This document shows, piece by piece, positions 7,414-10,136 of a stretch of 64,000 nt of DNA; position 1 is the first letter of the stretch; each line of letters opens with the position of its first letter. A program made the translations under genes and the position numbers. The DNA comes from Wenyingzhuangia aestuarii. GTDB taxonomy: Bacteria; Bacteroidota; Bacteroidia; Flavobacteriales; Flavobacteriaceae. The stretch spans positions 124,001-188,000 of the forward strand of contig NZ_JAATJG010000004.1 of the NCBI RefSeq assembly GCF_011927765.1, given 5' to 3'. A model generated the notes under the pieces. It ran no database searches. It was not told the origin of the DNA and saw only the letters and a list, made by a program, of their open reading frames with translations.

Positions 7414-8814
7414 ATGCGTAATAAATACAAAGATCTAATCAATCAAACTTTTTACTTTCCTCAAGAAGAATTTAAATTAACTGAAAAGAACGAATTAACT
7501 TTTCATGACATTGACATTGCTGGCTTGATTAAAGAACACGGAACTCCTTTAAAAGTTACTTACTTACCAAAAATTTCTGAAAACATTCAGAAAGCAAAAA
7601 CTTGGTTTGCCAACGCTTTTGAAAAACACAACTACAAAGGAAAATATTTTTACTCTTACTGTACTAAGAGTTCTCACTTTAAGCACGTTTTAGACGAGGC
7701 ATTGTCTAACAACATCCATATAGAAACCTCATCTGCTTTTGATATTAATATTGTTAATTCATTATTAGATTCTGGTAAAATAAACAAAGACACCTTTGTA
7801 ATTTGCAATGGATTTAAAAGAGAGCAGTACATTAACAACATTGCAGATTTAATTAACAACAAACACAAAAACTGTATTCCTATTATTGATAATTACGAAG
7901 AATTATCTTTACTAGAAGAGCAAGTTGATGAGTGTCTTAACGTAGGAATTAGAATTGCATCAGAAGAAGAACCCAAATTTGAGTTTTATACTTCTAGGTT
8001 AGGTATTGGGTACAAAAACATTGTACCGTTTTACAAAAGACAAATAGAAGAAAACCCAAATGTAAACTTAAAAATGTTGCACTTTTTTATCAATACAGGT
8101 ATTAAAGACAATGCTTACTATTGGAACGAATTGCACAAGTGTTTAAAGGTATATGTGTCTTTAAAAAAGATATGTCCAACCTTAGACTCTTTAAATATTG
8201 GTGGTGGTTTTCCTATTAAAACCTCTTTAGGATTTGAGTACGATTATGAATATATGATTGATGAAATCGTAAATCAAATAGACACTGTTTGTAAAGAAGC
8301 AAGTGTAGATGTTCCTAATATTTTTACAGAATTTGGAAGTTTTACTGTAGGAGAAAGCGGAGCTAACTTTTACAAAGTTTTGTATCAAAAACAACAAAAT
8401 GATAGAGAGCTTTGGAACATGATTGATTCTTCTTTTATAACAACTTTACCAGACTCTTGGGCTATTAACAAGCGTTTTATTATGCTACCTATTAACCGTT
8501 GGGAAGAAAGCTACGAAAGAGTTTTACTAGGAGGATTAACTTGTGATAGTGATGATTATTACAATAGCGAACAACACAGTAACGCTATTTATTTACCCAC
8601 TTATCATCCTGATAAACCCTTGTATTTAGGATTTTTTAACACCGGAGCCTATCAAGAATCTATAGGTGGTTTTGGAGGTTTGCAACACTGCTTAATTCCA
8701 CAACCCAAACAATTAATACTAAACAGAGATAAAGACGGAAAATTAACAACCACCGTTTTTAGAGAAAAACAAACACATCAAGAATTTTTAAAAATTTTAG
8801 GTTATGAAAACTAA
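7414..8814 (+). CDS. speA: Biosynthetic arginine decarboxylase (short Bacteroidota type)
   Basis: Converts arginine to agmatine and CO2, the first step of the agmatine route to putrescine. The protein is a PLP-dependent fold-III (alanine racemase-like) decarboxylase of 466 residues, much shorter than E. coli SpeA (658) but usual for Bacteroidota. The PLP lysine lies in CTKSSHF (K85), the phosphate-binding glycines in NIGGGFP (near 263), and the active-site Cys in TCDSDD (near 378). GAYQESIGGFGG near the C-terminus is also conserved. No key residue is missing. Its last 11 bases overlap the start of the SpeB-like gene, so the two are translationally coupled. A long leader precedes it. Confidence 0.9.
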   Translation: MRNKYKDLINQTFYFPQEEFKLTEKNELTFHDIDIAGLIKEHGTPLKVTYLPKISENIQKAKTWFANAFEKHNYKGKYFYSYCTKSSHFKHVLDEALSNNIHIETSSAFDINIVNSLLDSGKINKDTFVICNGFKREQYINNIADLINNKHKNCIPIIDNYEELSLLEEQVDECLNVGIRIASEEEPKFEFYTSRLGIGYKNIVPFYKRQIEENPNVNLKMLHFFINTGIKDNAYYWNELHKCLKVYVSLKKICPTLDSLNIGGGFPIKTSLGFEYDYEYMIDEIVNQIDTVCKEASVDVPNIFTEFGSFTVGESGANFYKVLYQKQQNDRELWNMIDSSFITTLPDSWAINKRFIMLPINRWEESYERVLLGGLTCDSDDYYNSEQHSNAIYLPTYHPDKPLYLGFFNTGAYQESIGGFGGLQHCLIPQPKQLILNRDKDGKLTTTVFREKQTHQEFLKILGYEN

Positions 8815-9736
8815 CTACGCTAGCATTTCTAACGAATATGCAAAAAAAGAAACCTCTAAAGTAGTTGTAATTCCTGTTCCTTATAAAGGAACTAATACTT
8901 GGCAACAAAACAGTCACAAAGGACCTCAAGCTTTTTTAGAAGCTTCTAATCATATGGAATTGTATGATATAGAAACAGAGTCTGAAGTGTACAAGCAAGG
9001 AATTTATTTAGCTGACGAAGTGGTTGAGAACAACAATCCAGAAGCTATGTCTGCTGCTGTATACGAAAACGTAAAGAGTCATTTAAAAACCAATAAATTT
9101 GTATCTGTAATTGGAGGAGATCACGCAGTGGTAATTGGAGCTATTAAAGCTTTTAATGAGCATTACGAGAACTTAACTGTTTTACAAATAGATGCACAAG
9201 CACGTTTGCACAAAGAGGTTAACGGAGAAAAAGTAAACAGTCAATGTGCTATGTACCATGCAAGTCAGGCTACCAACTTAATTCAGGTTGGAATTAGAAG
9301 CATGGCCAGTATAGAAAAAACCGTATTAGATACTGATAAAGCTTTTTTTGCAAACGAATTAGCTACCGATGATTATTGGATGGAAAACGCTATTGAAGCA
9401 ATGACAGACAATGTGGTTATCTCTTTAAGTTTAGACGGATTAGATCCATCTATTATGCCTGGAGTAGACAAACCTGTACCGGGTGGTTTATTTTGGTACG
9501 AAATTTTAGAATTCTTAAAAAGTGTTTTTGCAGAGAAAAACGTTATTGGAATTAATTTAGTTGGTTTATCTCCTTTAGAAGCAGATAAATCTTCAGAAGC
9601 CTTAGCTGCTAAATTATTCTACAAAATGTTAAGCTATAAATACGAGTTAGAAAAAGAAGATAACTTAGATATTGATGAGAATAGTTTTGCCAAAAGTGAA
9701 AACAAATTTGGTAAATTTAATGATGAAGACGAATAA
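8804..9736 (+). CDS. Agmatinase/arginase-family protein lacking catalytic residues (probable pseudoenzyme)
   Basis: The fold and position are those of agmatinase (SpeB), which turns agmatine into putrescine and urea at a two-manganese site. The family frame is clear: GGDH at 104-107, LDPSIMPG and PVPGG near 213-228. The metal motif DAHxD, however, reads DAQAR (Q132 for His, R134 for Asp), and the second motif DxD reads SLD (S209 for Asp, D211 kept). The HAC motif that carries the proton-shuttle His reads SQC (146-148), and the usual Glu in VELCP is Gly254. H107, D130 and D211 remain. Hydrolysis therefore looks impossible. An acidic tail (281-310) extends past the normal end. It overlaps speA by 11 bp, so a regulatory or scaffolding role for SpeA is plausible but inferred. 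Confidence 0.85.
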   Translation: MKTNYASISNEYAKKETSKVVVIPVPYKGTNTWQQNSHKGPQAFLEASNHMELYDIETESEVYKQGIYLADEVVENNNPEAMSAAVYENVKSHLKTNKFVSVIGGDHAVVIGAIKAFNEHYENLTVLQIDAQARLHKEVNGEKVNSQCAMYHASQATNLIQVGIRSMASIEKTVLDTDKAFFANELATDDYWMENAIEAMTDNVVISLSLDGLDPSIMPGVDKPVPGGLFWYEILEFLKSVFAEKNVIGINLVGLSPLEADKSSEALAAKLFYKMLSYKYELEKEDNLDIDENSFAKSENKFGKFNDEDE

Positions 9737-9779: not shown

Positions 9780-10091
9780 ATGATGAAAAGAATTATTATA
9801 GACCACACAAAAGTTACTGATGAAATTTTAAATATCATTATGGAAGATTATCCTGATGGATATACTGATAGAGATGTTTTAAAATTTAAAAATCATAAAG
9901 GTGAGCAAGTTGAAGCTTTAGAAATTAGACTAAATGATGATATTTATTTGGTAAAAGTTGGAACAAAATTAGACAAAGCTATTGATGCTTTTGTAGAAGA
10001 TGATTCTGATGATGAACCTGTTGACGAACCCAAAGACATTGAAGTTGACGACGACATTATTTCTGAGGATGATTCTGATGACGACAAATAG
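9780..10091 (+). CDS. Small acidic protein of unknown function
   Basis: A 103-residue protein, 43 bp after the SpeB-like gene and before a terminator, so likely the last gene of the speA transcript. Residues 1-72 look folded, with alternating strands and a helix (KRIIIDHTKV, EALEIRLNDDIYLVKVG). Residues 74-103 are almost wholly Asp/Glu. I recall similar short proteins with acidic tails as conserved hypotheticals in Flavobacteriia, but no function is known to me. There are two possible Met starts (9780 and 9783). The acidic tail echoes the acidic tail of the preceding protein. Confidence 0.75.
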   Translation: MMKRIIIDHTKVTDEILNIIMEDYPDGYTDRDVLKFKNHKGEQVEALEIRLNDDIYLVKVGTKLDKAIDAFVEDDSDDEPVDEPKDIEVDDDIISEDDSDDDK

Positions 10092-10100
10092 AAAACAAAA

Positions 10101-10136
10101 ACAGCCTAGTAAATATTTACTAGGCTGTTTTATTTT
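10101..10136 (+). terminator. Bidirectional terminator
   Basis: ACAGCCTAGTAAA and TTTACTAGGCTGT form a stem followed by TTTATTTT. It separates the polyamine cluster from convergent folE. Confidence 0.85.

Follow-up and report, generated by a model that had tools for sequence, protein, structure and literature searches.

Organization of the speA-speB locus

The window analyzed in this work (the whole stretch of 64,000 nucleotides from Wenyingzhuangia aestuarii, contig NZ_JAATJG010000004.1, positions 124,001 to 188,000) carries on its forward strand an agmatinase-like gene that overlaps a gene encoding a short arginine decarboxylase. The features of this locus, in window positions, are the following:

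7414-8814, + strand: speA-like gene encoding a short arginine decarboxylase, full length, 466 aa (PF02784, 2.1e-15)
8804-9736, + strand: pseudo-agmatinase gene, a SpeB orthologue with an incomplete metal site, 310 aa, ATG to TAA
9197-9205, + strand: codons 132-134, CAA GCA CGT (Q-A-R), where the ligands H-x-D are replaced
9239-9244, + strand: codons 146-147 (S-Q), replacing H-A of the HAC motif
9428-9430, + strand: codon 209 (S), replacing a metal-ligand Asp
9563-9565, + strand: codon 254 (G), replacing the substrate-binding Glu
9656-9733, + strand: acidic C-terminal tail, residues 285-310, predicted disordered; the intact SpeBs compared have similar tails
9780-10091, + strand: small acidic ORF without assigned family, probably the last gene of the operon; located 3′ of the deoxyhypusine-synthase-like gene (DHS) in relatives
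10098-10131, + strand: terminator-like hairpin of 15 pairs, 3′ of the small ORF, a consensus match only; probable end of the operon

The decarboxylase matches the NCBIfam model of biosynthetic arginine decarboxylases below its cut-off (7.9e-49), and its predicted model (pLDDT 78.6) matches the arginine decarboxylase structures 3nzp and 3n2o. The pseudo-agmatinase gene has an open frame, and its start overlaps the end of speA by 11 bp, as had been read from the sequence alone. Since speB is followed by the small ORF, which matches no Pfam or NCBIfam family, and then by the hairpin, speA, speB and the small acidic gene likely form an operon. In the outside relatives whose loci were compared, the operon comprises speA, an intact speB, DHS and the small acidic gene. 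DHS (PF01916) was not found in any of the six near-complete Wenyingzhuangia genomes, nor at the speA-speB locus of Ochrovirga. Whether or not DHS is present, the small acidic gene remains at the end of the speA operon in the loci compared.

The pseudo-agmatinase belongs to the ureohydrolases (Pfam Arginase PF00491, 1.4e-45), and its score against the NCBIfam agmatinase equivalog TIGR01230 is 171 bits for a cut-off of 174.3. Its nearest named records come from W. heitensis (90% identity), W. gilva (70%), W. marina (69%) and Ochrovirga pacifica (65%). Three of the six metal ligands are kept (H107, D130 and D211) and three are lost (H132Q, D134R and D209S), the HAC motif has become S146-Q147-C148 and the substrate-binding Glu is G254; intact relatives carry H, D, H, D and E at positions 132, 134, 146, 209 and 254. 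These substitutions are those first reported by the sequence-only reading, and the protein thus has neither the six Asp/His ligands nor the HAC His and substrate Glu of a functional agmatinase. The proposal that it is catalytically dead is well supported by these motif losses, and the ORF very probably encodes a pseudoenzyme. The predicted model (pLDDT 88.7) has a ureohydrolase fold that is confident up to about residue 284; its nearest solved structure is 3pzl (TM 0.81/0.85), and agmatinases and the metformin hydrolase also match. By operon position, tree and predicted fold, the protein resembles the agmatinase SpeB (EC 3.5.3.11, PF00491), from which it differs by the absence of the metal site, the HAC histidine and the substrate Glu. 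Judged from its sequence and model, it is a SpeB whose metal site and substrate pocket have been lost and whose predicted fold has been kept.

Its acidic tail had been described as an extra feature. However, Asp and Glu account for 10-12 of the last 32 residues in six dead SpeBs and for 9-12 in four intact ones, and the tail was rejected as a hallmark of dead copies.

A search of the PF00491 proteins of the window genome for a second speB, as had been advised, revealed neither an intact copy nor any other active-looking ureohydrolase. The sole other member of the family there (L002:1237-2391, 384 aa) is hutG-like but below the hutG cut-off and has neither the GGDH histidine nor the DAHxD motif. 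Both are absent from all 11 copies of this type, found in Wenyingzhuangia, Ochrovirga and Lutibacter (L097-L102 and L140-L143 in addition to L002). From these motifs, the L002-type protein is another conserved ureohydrolase pseudoenzyme; the gene adjoining it is presumably topA.

Distribution of dead SpeBs

All seven Wenyingzhuangia genomes compared, as well as Ochrovirga, carry at this locus a SpeB that has lost at least one catalytic residue. Among the eight catalytic positions, one is changed in G001, G003 and G004 (D134G), two in G005, four in W. heitensis (G002) and in Ochrovirga, five in the window protein and seven in the copy of G006. The eight positions were read in 175 SpeB-like sequences (115 + 60), 155 of which keep all of them. 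The 20 departing sequences are 18 dead SpeBs, the extra dead copy of G006 and a frameshifted copy in G098; leaving this last one aside, every SpeB read from a lineage other than the dead ones retains all eight residues. The frames of all 18 dead SpeBs are open, and 10 of the 18 have Asn at position 134, the commonest replacement there. On the SpeB tree, dead SpeBs result from about five losses, four of them forced by well-supported branches. The frameshifted G098 was left out of the tree and of the conservation and codon analyses, and the dead copy of G006 was counted apart; 12 distant rows were left out of the conservation and SpeA scans.

Full-length SpeA adjoins all 18 dead SpeBs, by overlap or within 13 bp, and DHS is present at 11 of these 18 loci. 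Nine SpeA residues (K85, which we take to be the PLP lysine, H223, G263-265, E306, C377, D378 and Y413) are identical in the 18 SpeAs encoded beside dead SpeBs.

Some genomes show particular situations. The speB of G098 (L183), an AguA-negative genome, is frameshifted with its readable motifs intact, which corresponds to a sequencing error or a fresh loss. G006 carries a much-altered dead speB at the old locus, where the neighboring SpeA is gone, and an intact speA-speB-DHS operon on another contig (L063, L065), a few kilobases from dnaN. The speA of this intact operon is 72% identical to that of the window, compared to 87-95% for other genomes, and the operon was probably re-acquired, as these identities suggest. 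Contamination was considered as the source of this contig and rejected: since dnaN is single in the genome and 95% identical to that of the window genome, the contig was taken as genuine. G005 encodes a separate arginase-like protein (L095) whose motifs look intact; the PF00491 matches of the other six genomes of the genus include no such protein. Its gene is flanked by what we take to be ornithine-aminotransferase-like and proline-dehydrogenase-like frames.

Selection on the dead protein

The sequence-only reading held that the gene is kept and not decaying. This is well supported by the open frames and by the low dN/dS of the dead clades: dead SpeBs recur across genera and are as constrained as intact SpeB. 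In nine pairs of species with dead SpeBs, codon models rejected neutrality each time (2dlnL 188-334), with dN/dS of 0.017-0.049 in eight pairs and a boundary value in one, for dS from 0.66 upwards, several pairwise dS being saturated. The dN/dS of thirteen intact pairs ranges from 0 to 0.131. On a Wenyingzhuangia tree, dN/dS of the Wenyingzhuangia/Ochrovirga dead clade (0.031) does not differ from that of intact branches (0.041; 2dlnL 1.4), and dN/dS = 1 is rejected for this clade (2dlnL 1060). The dead SpeB of G006, although fast-evolving and encoded at a locus devoid of SpeA, is also constrained (average dN/dS 0.044, 2dlnL 46). The terminal dN/dS of G298 is 0.188, a value not separable from 1 (2dlnL 2.3).

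The stems leading to dead lineages have dN/dS of 0.19 (G298), 0.23, 0.39 and 0.62, compared to 0.031, 0.059 and 0.043 for the crowns of the last three. The Lutibacter crown has a dN/dS of 0.016, its stem estimate being a boundary value on a near-zero branch. Comparison of stems with intact branches gave 2dlnL of 16.5, 3.3, 18.9 and 1.6, and 4.6 for Lutibacter; two stems (3.3 and 1.6) do not differ significantly from intact branches when taken alone. Overall, the branch classes suggest a burst of dN/dS at the loss followed by a return to an intact-like level. The dN/dS of SpeA lies between 0.01 and 0.09, with a mildly raised stem in two lineages (0.076 and 0.093; 2dlnL 4.6 and 5.2), and therefore a part of the rise of the SpeB stem in these two lineages may be non-specific.

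A comparison of 83 intact SpeBs gave 114 columns with almost no variation, and 58 of these columns are still conserved in at least 90% of the 18 dead SpeBs. The lost columns are led by D134, T223 and H146. Further ligands (D130, D209 and D211) and the substrate Glu are among them, as are loops near residues 28-36 and 221-225 that presumably line the pocket. Constraint is thus lost at pocket columns and largely retained elsewhere. Within four dead clades, 6, 5, 2 and 0 of the eight catalytic positions vary, and the contrast between catalytic and other conserved columns is weak (Fisher 0.056, 0.015, 1 and 1). Dead SpeB almost certainly has a selected function at the protein level.

The AguA/AguB route and the loss of catalysis

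The likely reason for the loss lies elsewhere in the genome, beyond what the sequence-only reading could see. The window genome carries an agmatine-deiminase-family gene (AguA) directly beside an N-carbamoylputrescine-amidase-like gene (AguB), a few kilobases from carboxynorspermidine synthase- and decarboxylase-like genes (CASDH and NspC). AguA, AguB and CASDH score below their equivalog cut-offs and NspC above. As annotated, this cluster could convert agmatine into putrescine and spermidine with neither SpeB nor DHS taking part. G002, G004, G005 and Ochrovirga have the same four-gene cluster. With these carboxyspermidine genes in the genomes read and no DHS found in the six near-complete ones, Wenyingzhuangia would be expected to contain spermidine and not homospermidine. 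Using PF04371 (1e-3 for named relatives, 1e-80 for a sample of 397 Flavobacteriaceae genomes), AguA was found in G000-G005, Ochrovirga and Lutibacter maritimus and was not found, at 1e-3, in L. flavus, whose SpeB is intact, or in G006, which has the intact operon elsewhere; the G006 genome is 85% complete, so that little weight can be given to the lack of AguA in it.

In the 397-genome sample, 254 genomes encode SpeB (1e-60), 54 encode AguA and 35 encode both; 19 AguA-positive genomes have no SpeB at 1e-60. The SpeBs of all 35 genomes encoding both were read, 13 being dead and 22 intact. Among the 219 AguA-negative genomes with SpeB, 123 were read, mostly high-scoring ones plus 14 low-scoring: 122 are intact, none of these being dead, and one is frameshifted (G098). 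Twelve rows had first been labelled AguA-untested; two of them, G035 and G048, belong to the sample and lack AguA, and were counted as AguA-negative. Dead SpeB is associated with AguA (Fisher 5.2e-10 on 13/22/0/120, calculated with 120 and not 122 intact AguA-negative genomes and ignoring relatedness). With genomes outside this sample included, 17 AguA-positive genomes have a dead SpeB; the 18th dead SpeB comes from one Lutibacter MAG whose AguA status is outside this count.

AguB adjoins AguA in all 15 dead-SpeB genomes read and in all 11 AguA-positive genomes with intact SpeB that were read. Since 22 of the 35 AguA-positive genomes keep an intact SpeB, with AguB beside AguA in each of those read, the AguA/AguB route permits the loss and does not force it. 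An example is that of the sister species G046 and G298, which belong to one genus and both carry AguA: SpeB is intact in G046 and dead in G298, so AguA is permissive but not sufficient. Their comparison also suggests that AguA arrived before SpeB was lost. Altogether, this route seems to have displaced SpeB catalysis, and in all likelihood it permitted the loss.

Two types of AguA loci were observed. In Wenyingzhuangia and Ochrovirga, the order is AguA-AguB-CASDH-CASDC (L184:3584-10281). Most others read have an AguB-AguA pair whose AguA is 29-39% identical to the Wenyingzhuangia/Ochrovirga type. Four AguA-positive stretches showed no AguB, and no gene for SpeA, SpeB or DHS was seen in any of the AguA stretches read.

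Proposed role of dead SpeB and alternative explanations

We propose that, in the family to which Wenyingzhuangia belongs, SpeB would always have served, besides catalysis, as a non-catalytic structural subunit, most likely by binding and stabilizing or tuning SpeA, the product of the overlapping gene. The AguA/AguB route would have made hydrolysis by SpeB dispensable and left the metal site free to erode, frequently to Asn, a residue that might also help folding without metal, and the binding job would preserve the rest of the protein. A binding role is the simplest reading, because the pocket is lost while much of the rest is strongly selected. SpeA is the best candidate partner, because it lies beside all 18 dead SpeBs with its key residues unchanged, compared to 11 of 18 for DHS. 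Taken as a whole, this explanation, drawn from sequence comparisons, has slightly better than an even chance of being right; for the identity of the partner as SpeA, we consider the chances evenly balanced. A more general version, in which Flavobacteriaceae SpeB has a second non-catalytic job needed by SpeA, as a cross-family analogue of prozymes, and in which AguA/AguB has separated both jobs through several independent losses, is tentative and somewhat less probable.

Several observations argue against SpeA as the partner. A scan of its conserved columns (SpeAs of at most 380 residues left out) showed no parallel changes in dead lineages: four of 245 columns changed lineage-wide, never in two lineages, and none of 235 changed in a chosen set of intact clades. 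Furthermore, G006 keeps a constrained dead SpeB without adjacent SpeA. Short SpeA homologues were also found on three Cytophagales plasmids, the only records from the plasmid searches; on the two annotated ones, SpeA is not adjacent to SpeB, one having an agmatinase-family gene about 4 kb away. Dead SpeB might thus be non-catalytic but work with a partner other than SpeA, serving as a scaffold or a regulator for DHS, AguA/AguB, the small acidic protein or an RNA. The selection evidence would fit such a role equally, as do the retention of the protein in G006 and the compensatory SpeA changes that were not found. However, SpeA is beside all 18 dead SpeBs, whereas DHS occurs at only 11 of 18 loci and at none of those of Wenyingzhuangia/Ochrovirga, and the AguA stretches read encode none of the three proteins, so that we regard a role without SpeA as rather unlikely. 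Acquisition of a new ligand or reaction by the pocket, for example as an agmatine sensor, is improbable. A raised stem dN/dS followed by constraint is what a gained function would produce as well, replacements are often Asn, and two of the four dead clades barely vary at catalytic positions (2/8 and 0/8); but the other two drift (6/8 and 5/8), replacements differ between lineages, and substrate-loop columns are among those lost.

The reading frame could be kept merely for the expression of speA or of a downstream gene by translational coupling or through the mRNA, as the 11 bp overlap, and the overlap or near-overlap at all 18 loci, might suggest; coupling would need neither the selection on amino acids nor that on non-pocket columns, making this very unlikely. 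Still less likely is an ordinary pseudogene, recently inactivated and decaying. Loss of the active site is what early decay would produce, and the terminal branch of G298, the lone dead SpeB in its genus here, does not reject neutrality; yet all 18 frames are open, the nine dead pairs have low dN/dS and dead SpeBs are shared across genera, which refutes decay for dead clades with more than one species. An agmatinase that would still be active with an altered metal site or another metal is equally hard to credit: it would fit G001, G003 and G004, with their single D134G change, but in the window protein three ligands are gone together with the HAC His and the Glu that binds the substrate, and the SpeBs read outside the dead lineages, G098 apart, depart at none of the eight positions.

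Comparison with known systems and significance

Ureohydrolase pseudoenzymes and prozymes of polyamine enzymes are already known. MetCb of the metformin hydrolase MetCaCb is a metal-free ureohydrolase pseudoenzyme with five of six ligands changed that acts as a protein binder (PMC11271267). Metformin hydrolase chains (8x3g and 8ryi) are among the nearest structures to the model of the window protein, which has lost three ligands and is predicted to keep the ureohydrolase fold. However, MetCb is the partner of an active ureohydrolase and probably arose by duplication (PMC11271267), whereas the window SpeB is the orthologue itself in a genome where no active-looking ureohydrolase was found. A MetCaCb-like partner was therefore rejected for the window genome; no adjacent active ureohydrolase was found, and in the genus only G005 (arginase L095) and G006 (intact SpeB) have another ureohydrolase with its motifs, neither adjacent.

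Oda of Fusobacterium combines, in one fusion protein, an ornithine decarboxylase with a dead arginase domain in which Ser and Asn replace two metal ligands, and it is conserved among genomes of F. nucleatum (PMC12826042). Oda thus resembles the window locus in tying a dead ureohydrolase to a basic amino-acid decarboxylase, but it is a fusion with an ornithine decarboxylase (PMC12826042), whereas the window has overlapping genes and an arginine decarboxylase. In Fusobacterium, the decarboxylase domain suffices for complementation and growth when its dead arginase partner is missing, which argues against a dependence of SpeA on dead SpeB (PMC12826042). As for the trypanosomatid prozymes of AdoMetDC and DHS (PMC5201418, PMC3663545 and PMC6221367), they are, like the window SpeB, dead proteins kept in polyamine-related metabolism. 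They are paralogues of the enzyme that they activate, encoded with it in one genome, whereas SpeB and SpeA have unrelated folds. A SpeA prozyme, the suggestion of the sequence-only reading, is possible, SpeA being the only neighbor shared by every one of the 18 dead SpeBs, but it would differ in this respect from the trypanosomatid type.

Searches of an open-access library revealed no agmatinase that had lost its activity several times at its own locus and was still maintained after AguA/AguB. With about five losses of the active site in lineages that have an alternative route, and with the protein kept, the present case looks like a replicated natural experiment. Comparing intact with dead relatives, such as G046 with G298 or Lutibacter flavus with L. 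maritimus, would allow a direct test for a hidden non-catalytic function in an ordinary housekeeping enzyme. The present case is also a warning for annotation: pathway reconstructions may credit bacteria carrying dead SpeB with an agmatinase that is probably absent, because three dead SpeBs pass the TIGR01230 cut-off (L086, 180.5; L156, 193.6; L005, 212.1) and the window protein, the only one below it among the four scored, falls just short.
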